Source of the DNA: a virus
Reading direction: 5' to 3' (one strand)
Virus record (IMG/VR): IMGVR_UViG_3300024517_000047
Coordinates: 1 to 37,613 of that record
DNA length: 37,613 nucleotides
Each line of letters starts with the position of its first letter. Position 1 is the first letter of the stretch. Position numbers and translations under genes: made by a program. Under the pieces are notes generated by a model. The model saw nothing but the letters and a program-made list of their open reading frames with translations, was not told the origin of the DNA and did no database searches. Below are positions 2,221-31,160 of this stretch, one piece after another.

Positions 2221-4209
2221 TTACCCCTTGGCCGGTTCTGCCCCTGGATTTTGGGAAAGCTTGGATGTTCCCCTTGGACCACCTGTGGTGGGGGGTGGTC
2301 CGCCTGGGCTGCTGGCTGGGAATGATCTTGATACAAATTTAAAGGCATCGGTTACTGCAATGGTTGCAGTCTCCAAAGATTCAAAGTTTTTGGCCTGCTG
2401 TATCTGCTTCTCAACTTGTCTGTCCATGGAAGCAATTAGTTTGTCTTCTGAACTTGTCAGCCCTGCTTTGGTTTCCTTGATCATAGCTTCTGGACTTTTG
2501 ACATCACCACCTGAAAGCAAAGAAGCAAACCCACCAAAAAACTCATTCATCCCACCCATTCTGCCAGATGTCACCTGCTGCCTTTTGGCCCTGATTGCTG
2601 CCAAGGCTTCTAGTTTTTCTTTGTGTGTTCCCGTGCTGGCAATCCTAGATGCATCCAGCATCAAATCCCCAGCTTGTTCAATGCTGGCAAACCCTTCCTT
2701 TGCTGTTGGGTCTAAAACGAATTTATGCAATGCAGTTCCTGCAATCGCACCAGCCGCACCAGCTGCCAAAACAGGCAATGCTGCACCAGCACCCAATGCC
2801 CCAGCCCCACCAGCAGCGCCAGCGCCAGCTGCACCAGCGCCAGCAGCCCCAGCACCACCCAATGCAGCCTTGGCAACTGCACCGGTAAGCAAAGAACCAC
2901 CAACGCCCAATGCAGCCTTTCCACCAACAGCAGCACCAACGGCTTTCCAAGGATTGGTCATGATCCAATTGAACAAGTCAGCAAATTTCTCAGCGATTGC
3001 AGGCAGATGTTTTGCCAACGTCTCAATTGCCTCAATCATCTTGGGTTGCTGAAAAGCTTTCTCAACTTTGTTGATTGCCATTCTCAATTGAATTGATGGG
3101 TCTTCTTTCATCTTATCGTTGGCGGACTTCTGAATATCTTTCCAAGTCATTGTGGTCTGACTTGCACCTTGGATGTTTTTGTCAAAAGCCTCTAGTGCCT
3201 TGTCTACTGCATCGGTTCTCTTCAACCCCTTTTCTTGTGCTTCTTTCATCGCAAGATCAAAAGGCTTGGCCAATGTATCAAACACATCCCGTGCATCTGC
3301 CGTAAATACCAACTCAGCAGCAGCCCTGCCTTTGACAGTGGTGAGAAGATCCCTAATCTTCTCCAATGCAGTTGCGTCTGGATCGAACTTCATGTTGGCG
3401 TCTTTTTCCAATTTCTTGAATTGGGATGAACCTTTTCGCAATGTATCAAACATCAGTTTCAAGCCAGGGTCAGCTTTTTCACCAATGGAATCATCCAGCA
3501 ACTTTAAGACACCAAGCAACTGCCCAAGCCCGTCAACACCTTCGAGGCCAGCACCCCTGGCTTTACCAGCCATCACCGCAAACCGCCCGGTCAATTCCTC
3601 TAATGATTTACCACCAGAACCGGTCAACTCAATAAAGGTGGTCAACCCACCCTTCATGTCATCAGCTGCCAAGCCAAATTTTCTTTTCAGCAATTCGGCT
3701 GCTGTTGTCACGTGTTCAATCTTCTCACCACTGCCAGTGGCGGCAGTGCCGATTTCATCCAATGATCCAGATGCAAATTCCAAATCACCGGTTGCCTGCA
3801 ATAGACTGTGAAACGATGTGGCCAAGTCCTGTGTGCTTTGGGCTGTGTCTTCTGCTGTATTGGCAACCAGCTTATTCACATCCTGCCAATCCATCATCCC
3901 ACCGGGCAACTTTTTGATTGTGAAGGCAATGTTCCGGTATTGGGTCTGCATGGTGACAGCATCTTTGATGAGTTTGCCGAAAGTCAGAGCACCACCGATA
4001 GTGGCAGCCGTGCGGATGTGGCCCTTTAGCTTTCCACCAAAGTTCTGTAATGATCTTCCGGCTGCACCCAATCCACGTGAGATACCAACACGAAGCGCTG
4101 ACCCCATCCTTTTTCCAGATGCAGCAACATTCCGTTCAACTTTGCCAAATTGTGATTGGAAGCTACCACTTCGAAGTGTAAGTTTTAGTGATGCTTCTCT
4201 AGTGGCCAT
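2221..4209 (-). CDS. Tail tape measure protein
   Basis: At 662 residues this sits directly after the tail assembly chaperone pair, as expected for the protein that sets tail length and exits into the host envelope. The N-terminus is basic and helical (LKLTLRSGSFQSQFGKVERN), followed by the TP901-like region with LANAATGSGE-type repeats (GSLDEIGTAATGSGEKIEHV near residue 150). Residues about 420-495 form a long Gly/Ala/Val-rich hydrophobic stretch, probably the membrane-active segment. The C-terminus is Pro/Gly-rich. It is short for a tape measure, suggesting a short contractile tail of roughly 100 nm if the usual length rule of about 0.15 nm per residue holds. GAGG lies 9 bases before the ATG. 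Confidence 0.9.
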   Translation of the reverse strand: MATREASLKLTLRSGSFQSQFGKVERNVAASGKRMGSALRVGISRGLGAAGRSLQNFGGKLKGHIRTAATIGGALTFGKLIKDAVTMQTQYRNIAFTIKKLPGGMMDWQDVNKLVANTAEDTAQSTQDLATSFHSLLQATGDLEFASGSLDEIGTAATGSGEKIEHVTTAAELLKRKFGLAADDMKGGLTTFIELTGSGGKSLEELTGRFAVMAGKARGAGLEGVDGLGQLLGVLKLLDDSIGEKADPGLKLMFDTLRKGSSQFKKLEKDANMKFDPDATALEKIRDLLTTVKGRAAAELVFTADARDVFDTLAKPFDLAMKEAQEKGLKRTDAVDKALEAFDKNIQGASQTTMTWKDIQKSANDKMKEDPSIQLRMAINKVEKAFQQPKMIEAIETLAKHLPAIAEKFADLFNWIMTNPWKAVGAAVGGKAALGVGGSLLTGAVAKAALGGAGAAGAGAAGAGAAGGAGALGAGAALPVLAAGAAGAIAGTALHKFVLDPTAKEGFASIEQAGDLMLDASRIASTGTHKEKLEALAAIRAKRQQVTSGRMGGMNEFFGGFASLLSGGDVKSPEAMIKETKAGLTSSEDKLIASMDRQVEKQIQQAKNFESLETATIAVTDAFKFVSRSFPASSPGGPPPTTGGPRGTSKLSQNPGAEPAKG
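2745..2880 (+). repeat. GC-rich degenerate repeat inside the tape measure gene
   Basis: Short units such as GCACCAGC and GCGCCAGC recur through this stretch and encode the Ala/Gly-rich segment of the tape measure protein on the opposite strand. The run is low-complexity and may be prone to slippage in blocks of three bases, which would change protein length without breaking frame. Confidence 0.7.
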
Positions 4210-4215
4210 GGGATG

Positions 4216-4437
4216 CTACCTCTTAGACCTTGATACACGGTCTAAAATATTATCCCATATTGAATCTAGTGGGGCAAGGTCAGCCCCTTGGAACAACTCC
4301 AAAAATCGCTCTAAACTGATTACACCACTGTCAAGGGCCCGGACCAAACCCATGATTACTTGGATTCCATCAAGCTCGCAAGATGGCTGGCCATAGTAAC
4401 TATGAAGCCAGTCTGCGATTCCGGCCCGTATGCGAGC
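4216..4437 (-). CDS. Tail assembly chaperone, -1 frame extension (GT-type product)
   Basis: Directly downstream of the heptamer CCCTTTG, the -1 frame is open for 73 codons to a TAG at 4216, with no strong start of its own at the join. Ribosomes slipping there would make a 253-residue fusion of codons 1-180 of the chaperone plus this tail, which continues ARIRAGIADWLHSYYGQPS and ends in a helical domain (SLERFLELFQ, LDSIWDNILDRV). This matches lambda G/GT and the frameshifted chaperones of Mu-type phages, found between the tube and tape measure genes. The only internal ATG (4353) would give a 45-residue protein and leaves about 28 conserved-looking codons unexplained. Confidence 0.82.
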   Translation of the reverse strand, partial: ARIRAGIADWLHSYYGQPSCELDGIQVIMGLVRALDSGVISLERFLELFQGADLAPLDSIWDNILDRVSRSKR

Positions 4438-4976
4438 AAAGGGACAATCGATCTCTCCTTTGAGATCGCAGAAATTAAAGCAAGCATTTCATCTTGTGAG
4501 ATTGAATCAGGCTGTGGATTTATCAGTTGCCTGTATGCATCGACCTTAGAATATATCTGAGCCAATGAACCTGTATCGTATTGCTTTTCTAATACCTTTG
4601 AATTTGGTTCCCAAGGTTCATGTGGTGGGTCTACATTCCTAATGGCAATCGACAAAAGGCACATATCCTCAATGTTCTCTACAAGGTCAGCATCCAGTTT
4701 CAAATCTAGCTCAGCTTCTTTGGCAATGCGTCTGGATGTAACACGGGCCTTTCTGATTTCATGTTCACGGGGAACACGAATCAAAACCTTTTGCTCTTTG
4801 AATTCACCATCTTTTTGGCGTTTGAATATCTTCTCTGGAAACAGAAGATACCCTGCATGTTCCAATACCTCTAGTTGGCCCCATTCCATTCCAACTAATT
4901 GTTCTGCAACATGCCCAGATAAATCATCTGGAAGGTTGAAAATGTCAGCTTTTGACTTTAGGGTTTTACTGTCCAT
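4356..4976 (-). CDS. Tail assembly chaperone (G-type, zero-frame product)
   Basis: A 206-residue protein encoded between the tail tube and the tape measure gene, the universal place of the tail assembly chaperone. The sequence is acidic and helical, with a DLKLDADLVENIEDM segment in the middle and no cysteine cluster or catalytic motif. Its codons 179-180 (CCT TTG) lie on a -1 slippery heptamer, and the zero frame ends 28 codons later. The ribosome site GGGAG is 8 bases before the ATG. Chaperones of this type coat the tape measure protein and recruit tube subunits. Confidence 0.8.
   Translation of the reverse strand: MDSKTLKSKADIFNLPDDLSGHVAEQLVGMEWGQLEVLEHAGYLLFPEKIFKRQKDGEFKEQKVLIRVPREHEIRKARVTSRRIAKEAELDLKLDADLVENIEDMCLLSIAIRNVDPPHEPWEPNSKVLEKQYDTGSLAQIYSKVDAYRQLINPQPDSISQDEMLALISAISKERSIVPLLAYGPESQTGFIVTMASHLASLMESK
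4437..4443 (-). promoter_or_regulatory. Programmed -1 ribosomal frameshift site CCCTTTG
   Basis: On the coding strand the bases read C CCT TTG in the zero frame of the chaperone gene, an exact X XXY YYZ heptamer. After slipping, the tRNAs pair with CCC and TTT and translation continues in an open -1 frame. The reading frame was checked from the ATG at 4976: codon 179 starts at 4442. Confidence 0.85.
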
Positions 4977-5039: not shown

Positions 5040-5411
5040 TCAGTCGGTTGTGTGACCGATGAAAGTGACAGACAGCTTGATTGCATCATCAATTGGCAAC
5101 TCATAATCAACTGTTGAAAATTTGCCGTTTGCAGTGATGGTTCTGCCTGGAATTTTAAGCCTGAGTTGCTTCACCAGATGCTTTTTCACCAGCGCCAACC
5201 AATCAGCTTCCTCACCATCTTCACCAATGACAGCATCAAAGGTGATGCTGGTTTCTTCCACGCCTTGGGTAGTACCAGCACCCTTTTGTCTGATGGTGTG
5301 GACTTGCTTTGAACCGTCTGCAATGCTGATTTTGACGTTCGTAACATCCATCAAATCACCAGAACCCAAAGCAACACTTCCCCTTGGGTAAATTGTTTCG
5401 CCGTTAGCCAT
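5040..5411 (-). CDS. Tail tube protein, Mu gpM-like
   Basis: A 123-residue protein immediately downstream of the sheath gene, matching the position and small size of the contractile-tail tube subunit. Features in keeping with the family are a beta-rich core (VTNVKISIADGSKQVHTIRQ) and the pattern EETSITFDAVIGEDG. The C-terminal strand (AIKLSVTFIGHTTD) resembles the last strand of tube monomers. The start has a very strong ribosome site, GGAGG 8 bases before ATG, and the gene is followed by a hairpin at 5003-5030, both fitting high expression. Confidence 0.82.
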   Translation of the reverse strand: MANGETIYPRGSVALGSGDLMDVTNVKISIADGSKQVHTIRQKGAGTTQGVEETSITFDAVIGEDGEEADWLALVKKHLVKQLRLKIPGRTITANGKFSTVDYELPIDDAIKLSVTFIGHTTD

Positions 5412-5430: not shown

Positions 5431-6972
5431 TTAGCTCGGTAAACGCTGTGAGACAATGCCGAATTTGGCCAGCGGTTGAATGATTTTCTTTGGTAGAACA
5501 ATATCCACTTGCGTTGCATCCGATGCATTGACTTGAACAATCAAACCACCACCCGGAAGGATTGCAGCATCCAATGCTGCTTTTTCCACAACACCGGCTT
5601 TTTCCCAGCTTCTCAGCCTGGAAGTGACCCATCCTTTGATGTCTCTCTCTTCTACTACACCGGGGGGGGGCGGATCTTCACCAGCTGCTTTGTCTTTGGT
5701 TATCTTGGCCTGTGGAAATTCAAGGGCGATATTATCCCGAATATCCCTGGCAACAATGTATTCAGCATCAACGTTCTGGGTATCAAGCAATCGCCTATCT
5801 GCACCACCAGCATCATCCTGGCTGTGAGTAGTGACCGCCCTGATGAGACGTTCTGCGCCTTGGGCTGTAAAGCCTACCAGCGAAACACCACCACCTAGCC
5901 CAGCCTCACTCTCAGATGCTGTGGGGTCATCAGCAATCTCATCATGGGAACCAACGTATCCGTCAAGCAACTCACCAATGCGGTTGGCTGCTGGGTCTAC
6001 GCTGATAGCTGCCAATCGTCCACCACACTCACGGCCAGCCAACTCACCAGGCAACCCACGTCCATTGATGGCCATAATCATTTCTGCTTTTTCTGAGTTG
6101 CCAAAAGAATCAGCATCCAGTGCAGAAAGAACAGCGGTTGCAACCGTGGAACCGGTATATCCGGCGATTACCTGTTGCAGTTTCGAGTTGAGACCAGTGT
6201 TGAGAGAATCAACGTGGGTGATAGCCCTGCCAGCGTTATTCGTTCCACCAATGGCATCAATGTCCTGATTGGACAGACAAGTCACGATGTAGTGATATTC
6301 CCGTCCTGAGATGCTGGCCAGTGCAGTGGTGAAATCAGGGTCAGTGGTAACAGCTGCCAATGGGGTGTGCGTTGCAGCGCCAGCAATCGCCTCAGTACCA
6401 GACACCGCTTCTTTGATGGAAGCCTTGATCAATATGTCTTCACCAACACCGCCCAAGCCCTTGGAGTCAACGGTTACAACGCCAACCCCACCACTGGATG
6501 CAGTGCAAGCCAAGTCATCTGTGCGTTGAAGAATCGCGTTAATCACATCGGTTTTGGTTGCATCGGCTGTTGCAGCCGCTGGCCAAGAAACCTCAAACTC
6601 ACGTCCCATGACATCCAGGGATATGATGTTGTCAGATGTGGGCACACCTGAAAGGGTCAAATCCAGGGTTGCTGTACCAGTCCCAGCAGTTGGGGCGATG
6701 AAATCCACTTGTGCAGCCGGGAATTTCGAATAGATCCCCTTTGCACCAAGGTGGCCAACCGTCCCAACACCAAAGGCTGTATTGGCAGAAGCTTCACCCG
6801 TTCCTGCCCTGACTTCCGTATCAACGGTTAAATCACCAACTGAACTTTTCGGGGCCATCAGCGCAACACGAAGCACGCCAGTGCTCGGGCTGGATGTTCC
6901 GGCCAATAGGTCTACGGTCAAATAGACACCGGGGGTTAAAACACTTGGAGCGACCGCAACAGGAACCGCCAT
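5431..6972 (-). CDS. Tail sheath protein, Mu gpL-like
   Basis: At 513 residues this has the size of Mu-type sheaths. It begins with the family's typical opening (APSVLTPGVYLTVDL), has an Ala/Gly/Thr-rich middle barrel, then the conserved block LIRAVTTHSQDDAGGADRRL near residue 380. It ends in the C-terminal domain (AEYIVARDIRDNIALEF, then KAALDAAILPGGGLIVQV) that links sheath subunits. It contracts to drive the tube through the envelope and shows that the virion is a myovirus. A nine-C run on the coding strand encodes a PPPP segment. GAGG lies 6 bases before the ATG. Confidence 0.92.
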   Translation of the reverse strand: MAVPVAVAPSVLTPGVYLTVDLLAGTSSPSTGVLRVALMAPKSSVGDLTVDTEVRAGTGEASANTAFGVGTVGHLGAKGIYSKFPAAQVDFIAPTAGTGTATLDLTLSGVPTSDNIISLDVMGREFEVSWPAAATADATKTDVINAILQRTDDLACTASSGGVGVVTVDSKGLGGVGEDILIKASIKEAVSGTEAIAGAATHTPLAAVTTDPDFTTALASISGREYHYIVTCLSNQDIDAIGGTNNAGRAITHVDSLNTGLNSKLQQVIAGYTGSTVATAVLSALDADSFGNSEKAEMIMAINGRGLPGELAGRECGGRLAAISVDPAANRIGELLDGYVGSHDEIADDPTASESEAGLGGGVSLVGFTAQGAERLIRAVTTHSQDDAGGADRRLLDTQNVDAEYIVARDIRDNIALEFPQAKITKDKAAGEDPPPPGVVEERDIKGWVTSRLRSWEKAGVVEKAALDAAILPGGGLIVQVNASDATQVDIVLPKKIIQPLAKFGIVSQRLPS

Positions 6973-18616: not shown

Positions 18617-21541
18617 TCAGATTAACCCAGACACTCCGCTGGTGAATCCAACGTCCGGTAATCCACGGATTGTGGAACCTGATACGACAGTGGAAGCGAG
18701 CTTTCGAGAGACGGCTACAACGCGACAGCGACAGTTGAATCCGTAGGGCGGATATGCAGTCTGCCAGAACGGATCGTTTGCAAAGAGCCTCTTATTGTTC
18801 ACGTTCTTGTGCGGGGTCCTGGTTCGATTATCCACGATGGGCCTGAATTCCCAGATGGGGAACGCCCTTACTACTTCGGGTTGTGACATGTGGGCATGGC
18901 GTCCACCGTTGTACGAATTCAGGACGTTGGTTCTAAACACCGTCTCAACATGTGAGGCAGACAGAGCAGTAGAACCCGGGGCAAATTCGACGGGAACGAA
19001 ACCGGCCGTCTTGACCCTTTCCTCGATGAACTTACGGAACTTGCGCAAGTCAGCACCAGCGCCAATCTGCTTAACCAATTCGTTGTGAATCGTTCGAAGC
19101 ATCTGGTCTTTGGTGACGCCAGCAACCGTGAAGGCTCGCCTTTTCAACAAGGCTGATAGGCTGGCAAAATCAGATTTTCTGATTAGACCTCGACGCTGGA
19201 AATCTTTCATTGCGTCCTGGAAAGCCAGGTCTGAAAAATTCCTGTCTATCGTGGCAGCCTGGACCTTGGTTGACGTAATCCCTTGCCGTCGTTCCCTCTC
19301 ACGTGTCTCAGTTTCAGTCTCAGATTCCTCAATCTCCAACGCACTATCGACAGCACCCAACGCAAAGGATTGGACCATTCGACGTTCTAGGCTACGCCCG
19401 AACTTATCAACATCGATGGATTCAGCCGCACGATTCAGGGCGTTGAATATGTCAGTGGGATTTTCCAGCCCTTTGACAGCATCTTCAAAAACACCAGCCC
19501 ACTGTTTCGTTGCCCTCCATAGTTCCTTTTTTCCACGGTCTAGGAGTCGCTCGGGGCTACCGTTTGGGGTATCGGGCTGCTCATGCTCGCGAGCACAATG
19601 AGCGCATCCATTATCCGTTTGCGCCTTGATAGCGTCCATCTCGATACGATGCTGATTCACTGAGTTTTGAAGCTGTATTGACACCGAATAATCACCAAAT
19701 TTATCAGCAATCAGGGCCACCGTTTCAGCATGGGCCGTGGCTGCGATTTCTTCGGCCTCTTCGACCTCTTCAATCTCTTCTGGCTCATCATCGTCATCCG
19801 CTACGGGTTCAGGGTCTGCAACCACGATGGCCTCACTGACATCCGGGCTAGACCGCTTTTTCTTGGCCTTGAATTCCTCGATGGTGAGATTCCCATCCGG
19901 GTCTAGTTCACCATCAGGACGGGTCAGCGGGGGCAGATTATCCGATTCCCTGGCTTCGTTGACCGTAACGATTGCGGCCATATCGGCGGAACCAATCGGA
20001 GTCTGTGCGCCTTCCTTTTGTCCCTCGCCAACACTTGCAACGGGAATGGCTGGTTGCTGTTCTCCAACCGCTGGTGATGTGTTGGGTGGGTGAACAATCC
20101 CGGGCCTGGGTGGCGGCGATACGGGGGCCAACGGTGGGGTTGGCGGTTGCACGATTTGCACCGTCGTATCATCTGATTCAGGCATGGCAAACCCGCTCAC
20201 CTCATAGGCCTCAGTCAGCTTGATAGAAAGACCAGCCTCCAAGGCTGCTGTAAGACGCTCTAACTCTTGTGCCCTATCGGCGGGAAGGTCAGAACGCAGA
20301 ATAAAGCGAGGCGCAAAGGGTAGATTCTCAGCACCGAAATTGACCTCGATAATGGCATCGGTAATGTATCGCTCAATCACCTCTTGTAACGCGTTCGAAT
20401 CACTAACCAGGATCTGGAATTGCTCATCCTGCATCACGTTGGCTTGGCTGGAATTCAGCCCAGCGGGAACACCATCAGTGGTCCCGGTCTGACCCAGTAC
20501 CAGTTTTGAAATCTGCTTGTCTGATTCCTCGATAATCTCAGCATGAACATTGCTGGCCGTTGCTCCGGGGGGCTCGACTCGAAGCGATACACCACGGGGT
20601 AGGCGGGCCGTGTAGGTTGCACCCAAGGAATCTATAATCTCGTTGGCAGATGCTAAGTCCTCAGCGCTGGCCGAACTGTCTTCATCAACCTCAATAATCC
20701 GCCAAGGCTTGGCAAACAACTCAGCGAGAATCATCCGCTCACGTGCGGCATATCGCTTGAAAAACGAGTAATACAAAGCCCGGGGGGCAAGCCCCTCACG
20801 CTCTGGATATTCTCCAAGAAGCTGGGGATTCCACCAACCGAACTTGCGCCAAAGCTTGTTCTCTCTAAGCCATTCCTCGGTCAGCTGAATATCACCCTCA
20901 GTGGTGGTGAAGTTCCCCCCGGTTCGCACGCCTTCCGGCCTGATTACCATCTGTCTTTCAGCCCCGAAATCAAGGCGTCTGGGGTGAACCCAATCAATCG
21001 ATGTCAGGGCCATGTTGACCCGTCCAAAATCACTCGGCTCTCTAAATATGGGGGTCCACGTTAGTTCCTGTGCAGCCCGACCGTCCCATGTTGCCCATGC
21101 AAATTGGGCCAAAACCTTTCGAAAGTCGGGCAGGTGCATCAATTGCTCGCGTACCACAGTAACGAAATGTTGGGCTTTGGCCTTGTCGAAGTCCGGACCT
21201 TGACCGGTTGCCGGTTGCACATCCCACGGAAGAGAACTGACAGCCCCAAACCGCTTCATTAATACAGACGACAGATGGGGGTCTGTATCGATGGTCTCTC
21301 GGTTCAGGTCGGTTAGGTCTCGCATCGAGCCACGATAGGCAGCCAGCAAAGCGTTCTCAATATTGTTCAGATTGATAGACCGTCCGAACCGGTTCCTATT
21401 ATCCCGTCTGGCGTCTTTGGTAGACGTGAGAGATTGATTCAATACGGACATCGGGACAATCGGAACCGGGGCAGTTGGGGCGTAAGCCTGTAATGCCAAG
21501 TCCTGATTTTTCTGTCTTTTTGGTAATACGTGTCTTGCCAT
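18617..21541 (-). CDS. Portal protein fused to Mu gpF-like head protein
   Basis: A single 974-residue chain. Residues about 40-470 are a Mu gp29-type (DUF935) portal, with DTDPHLSSVLMKRFGAVSSL near 85 and LVLGQTGTTDGVPAGLNSSQ near 345, forming the ring through which DNA enters. A Pro-rich stretch and an acidic run (EEIEEVEEAEE) link it to a C-terminal Mu gpF / SPP1 gp7-type domain (RTNVLNSYNGGRHAHM at about 870, PPYGFNCRCR at 931-940), a minor head protein present in few copies inside the capsid. In Mu these are two genes. I see no stop codon between them. Confidence 0.87.
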   Translation of the reverse strand: MARHVLPKRQKNQDLALQAYAPTAPVPIVPMSVLNQSLTSTKDARRDNRNRFGRSINLNNIENALLAAYRGSMRDLTDLNRETIDTDPHLSSVLMKRFGAVSSLPWDVQPATGQGPDFDKAKAQHFVTVVREQLMHLPDFRKVLAQFAWATWDGRAAQELTWTPIFREPSDFGRVNMALTSIDWVHPRRLDFGAERQMVIRPEGVRTGGNFTTTEGDIQLTEEWLRENKLWRKFGWWNPQLLGEYPEREGLAPRALYYSFFKRYAARERMILAELFAKPWRIIEVDEDSSASAEDLASANEIIDSLGATYTARLPRGVSLRVEPPGATASNVHAEIIEESDKQISKLVLGQTGTTDGVPAGLNSSQANVMQDEQFQILVSDSNALQEVIERYITDAIIEVNFGAENLPFAPRFILRSDLPADRAQELERLTAALEAGLSIKLTEAYEVSGFAMPESDDTTVQIVQPPTPPLAPVSPPPRPGIVHPPNTSPAVGEQQPAIPVASVGEGQKEGAQTPIGSADMAAIVTVNEARESDNLPPLTRPDGELDPDGNLTIEEFKAKKKRSSPDVSEAIVVADPEPVADDDDEPEEIEEVEEAEEIAATAHAETVALIADKFGDYSVSIQLQNSVNQHRIEMDAIKAQTDNGCAHCAREHEQPDTPNGSPERLLDRGKKELWRATKQWAGVFEDAVKGLENPTDIFNALNRAAESIDVDKFGRSLERRMVQSFALGAVDSALEIEESETETETRERERRQGITSTKVQAATIDRNFSDLAFQDAMKDFQRRGLIRKSDFASLSALLKRRAFTVAGVTKDQMLRTIHNELVKQIGAGADLRKFRKFIEERVKTAGFVPVEFAPGSTALSASHVETVFRTNVLNSYNGGRHAHMSQPEVVRAFPIWEFRPIVDNRTRTPHKNVNNKRLFANDPFWQTAYPPYGFNCRCRVVAVSRKLASTVVSGSTIRGLPDVGFTSGVSGLI

Positions 21542-25987: not shown

Positions 25988-26046
25988 TGGTGGCGTGACC
26001 GGTCACGTGCTACATTACCCATAGGGTATACGGCAATGTGCCGTAT
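25988..26046 (+). promoter_or_regulatory. Cassette promoter with three stacked palindromes
   Basis: An extended -10 (TG-C-TACATT, 26008-26016) has a weak -35. A perfect 14-bp palindrome CGTGACCGGTCACG (25994-26007) fills the spacer. TACCCATAGGGTA (26016-26028) lies at the likely start of transcription. ATACGGCA-ATG-TGCCGTAT (26028-26046), with eight-base arms, reaches to ten bases before the ATG at 26056. This is the layout of an autoregulated toxin-antitoxin operator. Confidence 0.7.
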
Positions 26047-26055
26047 TGGTTCGTT

Positions 26056-26658
26056 ATGACCAGCACAGAAACAAGTATCAAAATAGAATTCAATTTCGAC
26101 GTGGAGAAATTCGCGGATGTGATGGCCTTTTTCGCATCGGGAGTTCACGACCTGACTACGTTGAAGGCATTAAAACTGATCTATCTGGCTGACCGGGCCC
26201 ATTTGCTCGAATATGGTGCTCCCATTTTAGGGGACTGGTATGCCCATATGGATCATGGCCCTGTTCCATCGAAGGCATACGATCTTTTAAAGCAATTTAC
26301 CGACCCGGATCCTTCCTACCATTTTGATGAAGTGGAGATTCTGGAAGCACATGTTGGTAAGGCCAAGAAGGGGAAGCATGTCCGATTTACAAAAAGACAA
26401 AAGATCGAGCTTCATGCCCTGTCAGAATCGGAACTCAAGATCCTTAAGTCCACTGTTAGCAGCTACGGAAAAAGAAAAGCCTTTGAGCTTGCGGAAATGA
26501 CTCATAAACATTTTGCTTGGATAAGGTGTGAAGAATCTCGCGGACACGTACTGGATTACAGAGATTTTTTCGCCGATTCTGATGAAAATGAGGTGATGAA
26601 GGAAGTCATGGAGATCGAGCAAGAGAACAGAGACTTCATTTCTAAAATCAACGCATAG
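26056..26658 (+). CDS. Panacea-domain (DUF4065) antitoxin-like protein
   Basis: A 200-residue protein in the only rightward gene pair of the window. The Panacea signature is clear: TLKALKLIYLADRAHLLEYG (residues 35-54), PILGDWYAHMDHGPVPSKAY (56-75). The C-terminal part is charged and helical. Panacea proteins neutralise unrelated toxin domains encoded next door (PanAT systems). The ATG at 26056 is preferred because the domain starts at about residue 15. A GTG at 26038 is an alternative inside the third palindrome, and neither has a clear ribosome site. The partner gene follows after 12 bases. Confidence 0.85.
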   Translation: MTSTETSIKIEFNFDVEKFADVMAFFASGVHDLTTLKALKLIYLADRAHLLEYGAPILGDWYAHMDHGPVPSKAYDLLKQFTDPDPSYHFDEVEILEAHVGKAKKGKHVRFTKRQKIELHALSESELKILKSTVSSYGKRKAFELAEMTHKHFAWIRCEESRGHVLDYRDFFADSDENEVMKEVMEIEQENRDFISKINA

Positions 26659-26670
26659 AGCCTTGGGGGC

Positions 26671-27147
26671 ATGAAGTTACCTGGCGATCTAGCTTATCCA
26701 AAGTTATTCAAGCGCGGCGCTCTTCTTTATCAAGAACTGAAAACAGAACTCGAAACCGGACCTCGTAATAAATACATGGTGGTGGTGAGCATTGATGACA
26801 AGGACAAGCCTGTCCTTGTGGCGCTCACTACATCACAGGTGGAGAAGTTCAGAAGCCGTGTCCGCGTGCCTGGTTTCATCGGTATCGCAAAGGACGAAAC
26901 CGATTTGTTCGCCAAAGACACCATCGTTGACTGCCGGAAACTTCACGAACGAACACGTGAAAAGATGATCAGAGATTACGAATCTGAAGATTTGGAATAC
27001 AAGGGAACAATCCCGGATCACCTGATGGGTCGCATCGACCAAGCTCTGTATAGTGCTGAAACACTGACTTCCGCGCAAAAGAAAGCGACTGTACCTAGTG
27101 ATTTCGGGACCAATCATGGAGAAAATCCCAAGCCTGAAAAGAAGTAG
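26671..27147 (+). CDS. Putative MazF/PemK-fold toxin partner of the Panacea protein
   Basis: A 158-residue protein 12 bases after the Panacea gene, with TTGGGGGC as ribosome site. Its N-terminal 110 residues fit the small SH3-like barrel of MazF/PemK toxins: FKRGALLYQELKTELETG, then NKYMVVVSIDDKDKPVLVAL and TTSQ, then DLFAKDTIVDCRKLHERT, where family members have the S-Y/T-I-V-D strand. The tail (ETLTSAQKKATVPSDFGTNH) is probably disordered. MazF-type enzymes cut RNA, which would kill or stall the cell when the antitoxin is lost. The match is by pattern only and catalytic residues cannot be assigned. Confidence 0.55.
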   Translation: MKLPGDLAYPKLFKRGALLYQELKTELETGPRNKYMVVVSIDDKDKPVLVALTTSQVEKFRSRVRVPGFIGIAKDETDLFAKDTIVDCRKLHERTREKMIRDYESEDLEYKGTIPDHLMGRIDQALYSAETLTSAQKKATVPSDFGTNHGENPKPEKK

Positions 27148-28579: not shown

Positions 28580-28924
28580 CTACAGATCGGTGTACTTGGT
28601 AGCCTTGCCCATACATTTCTCAACGGGATACTTCGCAGCTGTGTGCGCCAGCTTGCTATAAAAAGCAGACTCCAAGTCTATACCGGCATCATGGGCCATT
28701 AGCAGAACCCACCAAAGGACATCGGATAGCTCGTGAGCCAGGTTGGTTTTATCAATCTCAACCCTATCCGTCTTCCACTGCCAAAGCTCTAGCACTTCCG
28801 TTGCTTCGAGGTTCAACGAAATAGCCATGTCCTTTAGGTTGTGAAACTTCGCCCAGTCTCGCTCATCTCGAAAGGAAACAATGGCCTTTGTCATCTGGGC
28901 TATCGTGTTGTCATTTTGCGGCAT
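28580..28924 (-). CDS. MazG-like nucleotide pyrophosphohydrolase (dCTPase/RS21-C6 type)
   Basis: A 114-residue all-alpha NTP-PPase. The motifs fit the DCTPP1/RS21-C6 subgroup: FRDERDWAKFHNLKDMAISL (residues 18-37), then EATEVLELWQW, then HELSDVLWWVLLMAHDAGID (E-x3-D metal site), and the closing ECMGKATKY-like KCMGKATKYTD. It hydrolyses (d)NTPs to monophosphates and pyrophosphate, possibly removing modified or unwanted dNTPs. It overlaps the helicase-methyltransferase gene by 14 bases, so they are co-translated. Confidence 0.85.
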   Translation of the reverse strand: MPQNDNTIAQMTKAIVSFRDERDWAKFHNLKDMAISLNLEATEVLELWQWKTDRVEIDKTNLAHELSDVLWWVLLMAHDAGIDLESAFYSKLAHTAAKYPVEKCMGKATKYTDL

Positions 28925-31160
28925 TGAAAAGATCCCCTTGGAAGTAGGTGTTATCCGCTGCCTCCAAATTCAAAACCGCCTGATTGTAGTAACTCTCTTT
29001 TAGCTCAGCCCCAATGAACTTGCGCCCCAACTTGAGAGAAACAAAACCCTCGGAACCTATACCGGCAAACGGGCTGAAAACCGTATCCCCTTCATTGGTC
29101 CAAAGTTGTAAAGCCCGCTCAATGACATCCAGCTGCAACGGGCAGATGTGGCGCTCATCTTCATTCTCACGGGCCGATGCTTTTTGGAGAGTGTTACCCG
29201 GTCGGATGTCCATCCAGACGGGGCTGGCGTATCGTTGCCAGACATCGATAGAAAGCTTGCCATCATTTTTGAACGTTCGCTCATCGCCGCAGAAATACTC
29301 AAACGGACCATCAACGGGGTCTGGGTTATCGCCGGGCTTGCGCATCGTGATAAGGTAGTCCGGTATCCCCTGCCTACTCATACAAGAATCCTTTAGCATT
29401 TGTTTGTGTAGCAGCCCGAGCGCCTTGGTTCGCTGCATCGCCACCACGGGATCTTTCCAGATGCACACTTCGGAATGGTAGATGAACCCAGCATCTTGAA
29501 AACGCTTGATGAGCCCGCCCCTGAAATCCCTGATACCAATGTATCCGTCGCGTGTCTTTGTTGTTGGGATGTTCATGCAGTGGAAAGACAGAAGCCTTCC
29601 AGGCTTTGTGATTCTAAGCAACTCAGGAACCAAGTAAGAAAAATGCTCATCAAACTCCGCATGGTCTTTGCAGTTGCCCATGTCCCGGTCGCTGTTCGAA
29701 TAGGTGTACAGGCTGGCAAATGGAGGGGAGAAAATAGAATAGTCGATAGACCCCGTTTCAATATCCTTCACAACCTCAACGCAATCACCAAGGTGGATGG
29801 TGTAGTTTTCTGACTCTTGCTCAGCTGTTTTGTATGTCGATGTGTCTTTGGACATCCCGCCGATCTCCTTTTTTGTGATTTCTGACATGTGCTCAACCAT
29901 GGATTCAGCCATGATAATTGCATCTCGCTCTTTTCTCTCGATGTTTTTGACCACTGCCCCTTCTACATCGGCTGTCACAATGTACACATCGACTATTTTA
30001 TCTTGTCCAAACCGCCAGCAACGACGCACGGCTTGGTAGTAGGCTTCCCAAGAGTCAGACAAACCCAGGAAAAGGACATTGCTACAGTGCTGCCAGTTCA
30101 TCCCGAATCCTGCAATCTTGGGTTTGGTGATCATGATGTCGAATTCACCGCGTGAAAAGCCGATTAAACGCTTCTCTTTAACCTCTGGTTTGTCCGATCC
30201 AGCCACCTGGACAGCCCCTGGAAGTAGTTTTTGCAGCGTATCAGCCTCTTTATTGAGGTTGCACCACACTAACCACGGCTCGTTTGGCTTTGTTTTGATG
30301 ATTTCAGCCGCTGCCTGTGCCCTTTCTTGTGTCGTTTCGCGCCTTGCAACTAGCCTTTCGGCCAGTGTTTGGGCCTCCATCGGGAAAAGAAAGTCACATG
30401 TGGACTCTGTTTGGATGGTTATGGGGTGATGTTGGATACCCGGAAGGGTAAAACCCCCGTCATCGTACCCAATATCGGATGGTTTACGGATATTGACCGC
30501 CCATGAACAAAGCCATTTCCAGAAATCAGTTTGAGCATGTCCTTTCAATCGCCACTTTTGAACCTCGCCACCATCATGCACAAAGAACATTGACAGCATC
30601 TCAGTGCGAGACATGGCCCCTAGAAATTCAGCATGGTTGCCTAGTTCCATGTGATCATTGGGGGCTGGTGTTGCCGTGCATGCAAGCTTGAACTGGGTAT
30701 CCTTGAACCGGTCGATGATTTGATTTCTGTATTTGCCAGCGTAGTTTTTCAAGATGCCTGATTCATCTGTCACCACAGCATCAAATTCCACGTTGTCAAA
30801 ATGGCTCAGCATCTCATAGTTGGTGATGTATATTCCCGGCCCCTCAAGTTCCGATTCATCACGAACGGCTTTGACATCCACGTCAAACTTGACACCCTCT
30901 TGCACAGTCTGGCTACTGACTGCCAGCGGTGCGAGTATCAGCCCATATCCACAATCCCCAATCACCTGGCGAGCCCATTCAAGCTGCATCGGTGTTTTGC
31001 CAAGCCCGCAATCGGCAAAGATGGCTGACCGCCCTCGACGTACCGCCCATCGAACTATATCCGCCTGAAATTCGTAGAGCTTCGGATTGATAGCCCCTGG
31101 TTCTTTGCCCGTTGGCAAATCCAGAAAGGCTTTTTCACTGAGAAATTTTTCATAGCCCAT
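28911..31160 (-). CDS. SNF2-type helicase fused to a beta-class DNA methyltransferase
   Basis: A 749-residue two-part protein. Helicase: Walker A GLGKT (52-56), DESG motif II (132-135), TATPAPND motif III (162-169), and motif VI QAVRRCWRFGQ (376-386). Methyltransferase: HLGDC (456-460), catalytic SPPF (478-481), and AdoMet-binding FSPFAGIG at the end (695-702). Motif IV before motif I defines the beta order. SPPF points to N4-cytosine or N6-adenine. No nuclease domain is seen, so it resembles a stand-alone or anti-restriction methylase using ATP to move on DNA. TGATG overlap with the Xre gene. Confidence 0.9.
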   Translation of the reverse strand: MGYEKFLSEKAFLDLPTGKEPGAINPKLYEFQADIVRWAVRRGRSAIFADCGLGKTPMQLEWARQVIGDCGYGLILAPLAVSSQTVQEGVKFDVDVKAVRDESELEGPGIYITNYEMLSHFDNVEFDAVVTDESGILKNYAGKYRNQIIDRFKDTQFKLACTATPAPNDHMELGNHAEFLGAMSRTEMLSMFFVHDGGEVQKWRLKGHAQTDFWKWLCSWAVNIRKPSDIGYDDGGFTLPGIQHHPITIQTESTCDFLFPMEAQTLAERLVARRETTQERAQAAAEIIKTKPNEPWLVWCNLNKEADTLQKLLPGAVQVAGSDKPEVKEKRLIGFSRGEFDIMITKPKIAGFGMNWQHCSNVLFLGLSDSWEAYYQAVRRCWRFGQDKIVDVYIVTADVEGAVVKNIERKERDAIIMAESMVEHMSEITKKEIGGMSKDTSTYKTAEQESENYTIHLGDCVEVVKDIETGSIDYSIFSPPFASLYTYSNSDRDMGNCKDHAEFDEHFSYLVPELLRITKPGRLLSFHCMNIPTTKTRDGYIGIRDFRGGLIKRFQDAGFIYHSEVCIWKDPVVAMQRTKALGLLHKQMLKDSCMSRQGIPDYLITMRKPGDNPDPVDGPFEYFCGDERTFKNDGKLSIDVWQRYASPVWMDIRPGNTLQKASARENEDERHICPLQLDVIERALQLWTNEGDTVFSPFAGIGSEGFVSLKLGRKFIGAELKESYYNQAVLNLEAADNTYFQGDLFNAAK

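Follow-up and report, generated by a model that had tools for sequence, protein, structure and literature searches.

Tail assembly chaperones are known for their low sequence similarity (PMC5009743). In lambda, gpG and gpGT are encoded between the tube and tape measure genes and share an N-terminus, and a -1 shift at the heptamer G GGA AAG takes place shortly before the upstream frame ends. The tape measure protein is coated by gpG, and the T portion of gpGT attaches to the tube protein (PMC5009743). In Mu, the genes follow the order sheath (L), tube (M), chaperone (41), tape measure (42) and N, and the chaperone extension is made by a -2 shift (PMC5009743). A survey in E. coli reported that the heptamers C_CC.U_UU.A and C_CC.U_UU.G give >0.10% frameshifting without stimulators and rank among the heptamers underrepresented in E. 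coli genes, whereas those with the top efficiency include H_HH.U_UU.Y and not UUR (PMC4066793). In bacteria, stimulation by Shine-Dalgarno (SD)-like sequences 5' of -1 sites is established, and the same survey looked for them 6-17 nt upstream (PMC4066793).

We analyzed an IMG/VR virus record that is 37,613 bases long, and this whole stretch is referred to below as the window. It carries a contractile-tail gene set, unlike lambda, and its gene order matches that of Mu. A small gene in this set resembles the lambda pair in its position between the tube and tape measure genes, in a -1 shift late in the upstream frame and in the shared N-terminus of the products. As judged from the window and its relatives, this gene is very probably decoded by programmed -1 ribosomal frameshifting into products of 206 aa and 253 aa. 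An earlier note on this DNA had proposed such a frameshift in the tail chaperone and had suggested a check in related phages. We found that the heptamer, both frames and the gene order were kept in every complete relative, an outcome of this check that supports the proposal.

The chaperone gene and its -1 frame

The chaperone gene is flanked by the tail tube and tape measure genes, an order that was the same in the relatives, and GGGAG precedes its ATG (Table 1). In the zero frame the context of the heptamer reads GTC CCT TTG, with CCT as codon 179 and TTG as codon 180, and the earlier note was exact in its coordinates, frame and lengths. The unshifted zero-frame peptide over the heptamer is SIVPLLAYGPESQTGFIVTMASHLASLMESK. 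In the window, the -1 frame is already open 45 nt 5' of the heptamer. It then stays open for 73 codons to a TAG at 4216, and the tape measure ATG lies 6 nt further on at 4209; the -1 frame fills the gap to the tape measure gene as had been claimed. The remark that simple ORF finding would not see the extension was also correct. The first ATG, GTG or TTG of this frame does not come until 90 nt 3' of the heptamer, and the extension was missed by the ORF listing at 60 aa because it has no such codon before that point.

Table 1. Coordinates of the tail genes and of the putative frameshift elements in the window
Feature	Position	Strand	Remarks
Tape measure protein	2221..4209	-	phrog_794, E 3.5e-08; kept in relatives
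-1 extension, 75 codons (73 post-slip) + TAG	4216..4443	-	homologue in 16 relatives; coding pattern
Short form of the tail assembly chaperone (zero frame, 206 aa)	4356..4976	-	flanked by tube and tape measure genes
Slippery heptamer C CCT TTG, codons 179-180	4437..4443	-	same pair slippery in 17/17 complete loci
SD-like AAAGGAG, 11 nt 5' of the heptamer	4455..4461	-	probable frameshift stimulator
Tail tube protein	5040..5411	-	phrog_185, E 0.0011; kept in relatives
Tail sheath protein	5431..6972	-	phrog_165, E 4.8e-44

The larger ORFs of the window contained 37 in-frame X XXY YYZ heptamers in 8,100 codons, or about one per 219 codons, and the chaperone heptamer alone is therefore unremarkable. 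It had the longest -1 run past the end of its own gene (45 codons), and the next longest, of 25 codons, was found in the sheath gene. The latter run belongs to an in-frame C CCC CCC at codon 435 of the sheath ORF, from which the -1 frame goes beyond the stop; we regard it as probably due to chance. Since a single genome proves little, the case for frameshifting had to be decided by the relatives.

We also noted several genes outside the tail region. A single 974-aa ORF (18617-21541, - strand) fuses a Mu-type portal (PF06074) to a Mu F-like minor head protein (PF04233), unlike in Mu, where the two are separate genes. The gene at 26038-26658 (+) encodes a Panacea/SocA antitoxin-domain protein (PF13274, E 1.5e-20), and just after it lies a 158-aa ORF (26671-27147, +) without a Pfam or PADLOC match. 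Together they form a possible phage-carried toxin-antitoxin pair. Another ORF, of 749 aa (28911-31160, - strand), combines helicase domains (Helicase_C and a weak SNF2) with an N6/N4 DNA methylase.

Conservation of the heptamer and of both frames

With the exception of one locus, L030, the relatives were gathered through their sheath or tube proteins and not through the heptamer. The sheath query identified L002, which was 58% identical, and a sheath alignment used as the query identified L004 and L005. The tube alignment A6 found 20 loci among viral contigs. The extension alignment added one further distinct locus, L030, which is no unbiased test because it was found through the extension itself. 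The window chaperone as a direct query had no match among GenBank phages and viral contigs, and the chaperones of L013, L016 and L025 and the tape measure protein as queries likewise retrieved nothing. Two scans of genome contigs also came back empty. After duplicates were removed, the comparison set consisted of 17 distinct complete chaperone regions, namely the window and 16 relatives, whose zero-frame identity to the window went down to 25%.

A slippery heptamer was present at one shared codon pair in all 17 complete loci, each of which had a homologous -1 extension. The heptamer was C CCT TTA in 11 loci, T TTT TTA in five and C CCT TTG in the window, and the partial locus L014 likewise carries C CCT TTA. 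In the zero-frame alignment the codon at Pro-179 was CCT in 12 out of 12 loci and the codon at Leu-180 was TTA in 16 out of 17. The share of TTA among Leu codons is 0 to 2% in most of these high-GC contigs. As a control we used ten other Pro/Leu columns common to at least 12 loci, which had three to five codons apiece; these columns have the same ancestry yet show no such codon fixation. When the codon-usage chances were multiplied across loci the product was ~1e-38, which is not a probability because shared ancestry is ignored. Identical residues had identical codons at frequencies of 0.69 and 0.63 in the blocks of the site, as compared to 0.38-0.56 upstream. The codon choice at the heptamer pair is far beyond chance.

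The types of heptamer also bear on RNA polymerase slippage (transcriptional realignment), by which mRNAs in both frames would arise at the site. Five relatives do have a run of six T in T TTT TTA that would suit such slippage. However, the window and 11 relatives have just three C followed by three T, a run too short for transcriptional slippage, and the pattern follows the tandem tRNA rule and not run length. We consider this explanation extremely unlikely.

We then compared the two frames as coding sequences. The extensions of the 17 loci begin with P/F-F-S/A-R, and most contain Y/H-G and a V-R-D/A-L-D-x-G motif. Beyond the zero-frame stop, the differences at -1 codon positions 1, 2 and 3 were 0.62, 0.50 and 0.72, respectively, among the nearer relatives, with position 3 the most variable. 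All three positions were constrained in the overlap (0.37, 0.27 and 0.42), and the zero frame upstream of the overlap, used for comparison, gave 0.48, 0.35 and 0.64. By these substitution patterns both frames are coding. The extension was modeled as an all-helical domain with a mean pLDDT of 88.9. The earlier note had named two observations that would speak against frameshifting. One was a -1 frame lacking any protein-like conservation, and a coding pattern was seen instead. As for the other, none of the 17 loci lacked the heptamer while keeping two genes with their own starts.

The same frame break in 17 distinct loci argues against the idea that the two frames had once been a single ORF, broken by an indel from sequencing or assembly or by gene decay, even though an indel is possible in single metagenome contigs. 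In addition, the zero-frame segment 3' of the heptamer is itself conserved and has its own stop. Because the break recurs in independent contigs, an indel artefact is excluded, and the probability that we give to this explanation as a whole is vanishingly small.

The -1 frame is under protein-coding constraint across the 17 loci but has no conserved start. No start position is common to all loci, although some relatives have GTG or TTG in that frame, at -42 or +36, and nine of the 17 loci, the window included, have no ATG, GTG or TTG in this frame from -60 to +45 nt. In L008, a -1 frame stop lies immediately 5' of the heptamer and the first start is at +183, so that its conserved extension is unreachable from an upstream start. 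These observations weigh against the -1 frame being a separate overlapping gene, reached from its own start by internal initiation or coupling, with an incidental heptamer and with the SD-like sequence, which does lie close 5' of the site, as its ribosome-binding site. Such a gene would also leave the codon fixation at the heptamer unexplained, and we judge it very unlikely.

Upstream pairing and predicted decoding

We scored the anti-SD pairing 4-14 nt upstream of the heptamer, with 125 equal zones from the same genes as controls. The best pairing averaged -6.5 kcal/mol over the 17 loci versus -2.8 kcal/mol in the control zones, and 0 out of 125 control zones matched that strength. The duplex of the window AAAGGAG with the anti-SD had an energy of -8.7 kcal/mol. 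The SD-like element was strong in 14 of the 17 loci; the three with a weak one are L002, L012 and L019. On the downstream side, RNAalifold detected no conserved RNA structure across the relatives, and folding of the single sequences gave z-scores of -2.1 to +0.9. A stem-loop in the window (-22.7 kcal/mol, z -1.5) was rejected as a downstream stimulator since it was not conserved in the relatives.

We propose that programmed -1 frameshifting at this gene would proceed as follows. The majority of ribosomes would reach the zero-frame stop and produce the 206-aa protein, the counterpart of lambda gpG. A minority would stall with tRNA-Pro on CCU and tRNA-Leu on UUG (UUA in the relatives), aided by pairing of the upstream SD-like sequence with 16S rRNA, and both tRNAs would then slip back in tandem by one base to pair with CCC UUU. 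In the T TTT TTA relatives, tRNA-Phe and tRNA-Leu would slip at U UUU UUA. Translation of 73 more codons after the slip would give a fusion that is the gpGT counterpart. Since the residues of the site are decoded in the zero frame, this long form would have 180 + 73 = 253 aa. The comparison shows that the site, the SD-like element, both frames and the order of the genes are conserved; that ribosomes slip here, and how efficiently, we infer. If the division of labor is that of lambda, the part common to both products would bind the tape measure protein, and tube subunits would be recruited by the helical domain encoded in the -1 frame.

The efficiency of the shift may be modest here because E. 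coli favors H_HH.U_UU.Y over UUR. It is conceivable, though rather doubtful, that the shift is set by the upstream SD-like pause together with a rare codon in the A site, without a downstream RNA structure. UUA is nearly absent from other Leu positions in the high-GC members and yet is fixed at this site, and on this reading a scarce tRNA-Leu(UAA) could govern the ratio of the chaperone products. The window, with its common TTG, would be an exception to this rare-codon reading.

Relation to known tail chaperones

Neither the zero-frame part nor the extension had a convincing match in Pfam, PHROGs or PDB sequences, and neither part matched any GenBank phage in sequence searches. The earlier note had suggested a comparison with gpT-type and 'Mu gp42-type' chaperones. 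In Mu, gp41 is the chaperone while gp42 is the tape measure protein, and hhalign against the single sequences of lambda G/T and Mu gp41, which is a weak test, found no homology to either part. Homology to known chaperones is a shared and not a defining feature because low similarity is typical of these proteins (PMC5009743). The top PDB match of the zero-frame model (mean pLDDT 82) was the HK97 chaperone 2ob9, at a non-significant E-value of 0.38 with a probability of 0.69, and the TM-score by target length was 0.53. The label 'chaperone' rests on the gene position, the two-frame architecture and this non-significant fold match. A PDB profile match of the extension to a molybdenum-binding protein (E 6e-4) had no fold support and was regarded as chance.

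The earlier statement that Mu-like phages use this trick was right for the gene order and the product pair. It did not apply to the shift, which is -2 in Mu (PMC5009743); the extension was in the -1 frame at all loci, so the -2 (+1) frame of the Mu type was not found. In HK97, the -1 frameshift of gp13/gp14 is annotated in the record, and 2ob9 is the structure of gp13. SPP1, a Bacillus siphovirus, has the tail chaperone pair gp17.5/gp17.5* with a putative -1 shift at U UUU UUC (PMC6316719), a heptamer different from that of the window. Lambda also differs in its heptamer, since the loci studied here have C CCU UUR or U UUU UUA. Our literature search found no relevant use of CCCTTTA as a phage frameshift heptamer.

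Three cultured phages with related sheaths, SfII (Shigella), PY223 (Bordetella) and BgVeeders33 (Burkholderia), have a small gene between the tube and tape measure genes with an in-frame T TTT TTY/G, and an open -1 frame fills the gap. These sites lie at 6655 in BgVeeders33 (L007), 6140 in PY223 (L033) and 5593 in SfII (L034), and the frameshift product is unannotated in the records. The chaperones of these phages are ~90 aa, and their extensions are without the PFSRxR...YYG signature.

By the searches above, the chaperone family is previously uncatalogued; -1 frameshifted tail chaperones as such are already known. Annotations of such contigs are without the extension domain because ordinary gene calling misses it. 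The natural series C CCU UUA, U UUU UUA and C CCU UUG offers a test of how the site and the SD-like element set the ratio. The new family, which our searches recovered only from uncultured phage contigs, would be a further case of a tail chaperone produced through frameshifting. Its heptamer, C CCU UUR, is unusual and has kept its place at a single codon pair, while identity between the proteins goes down to 25%.
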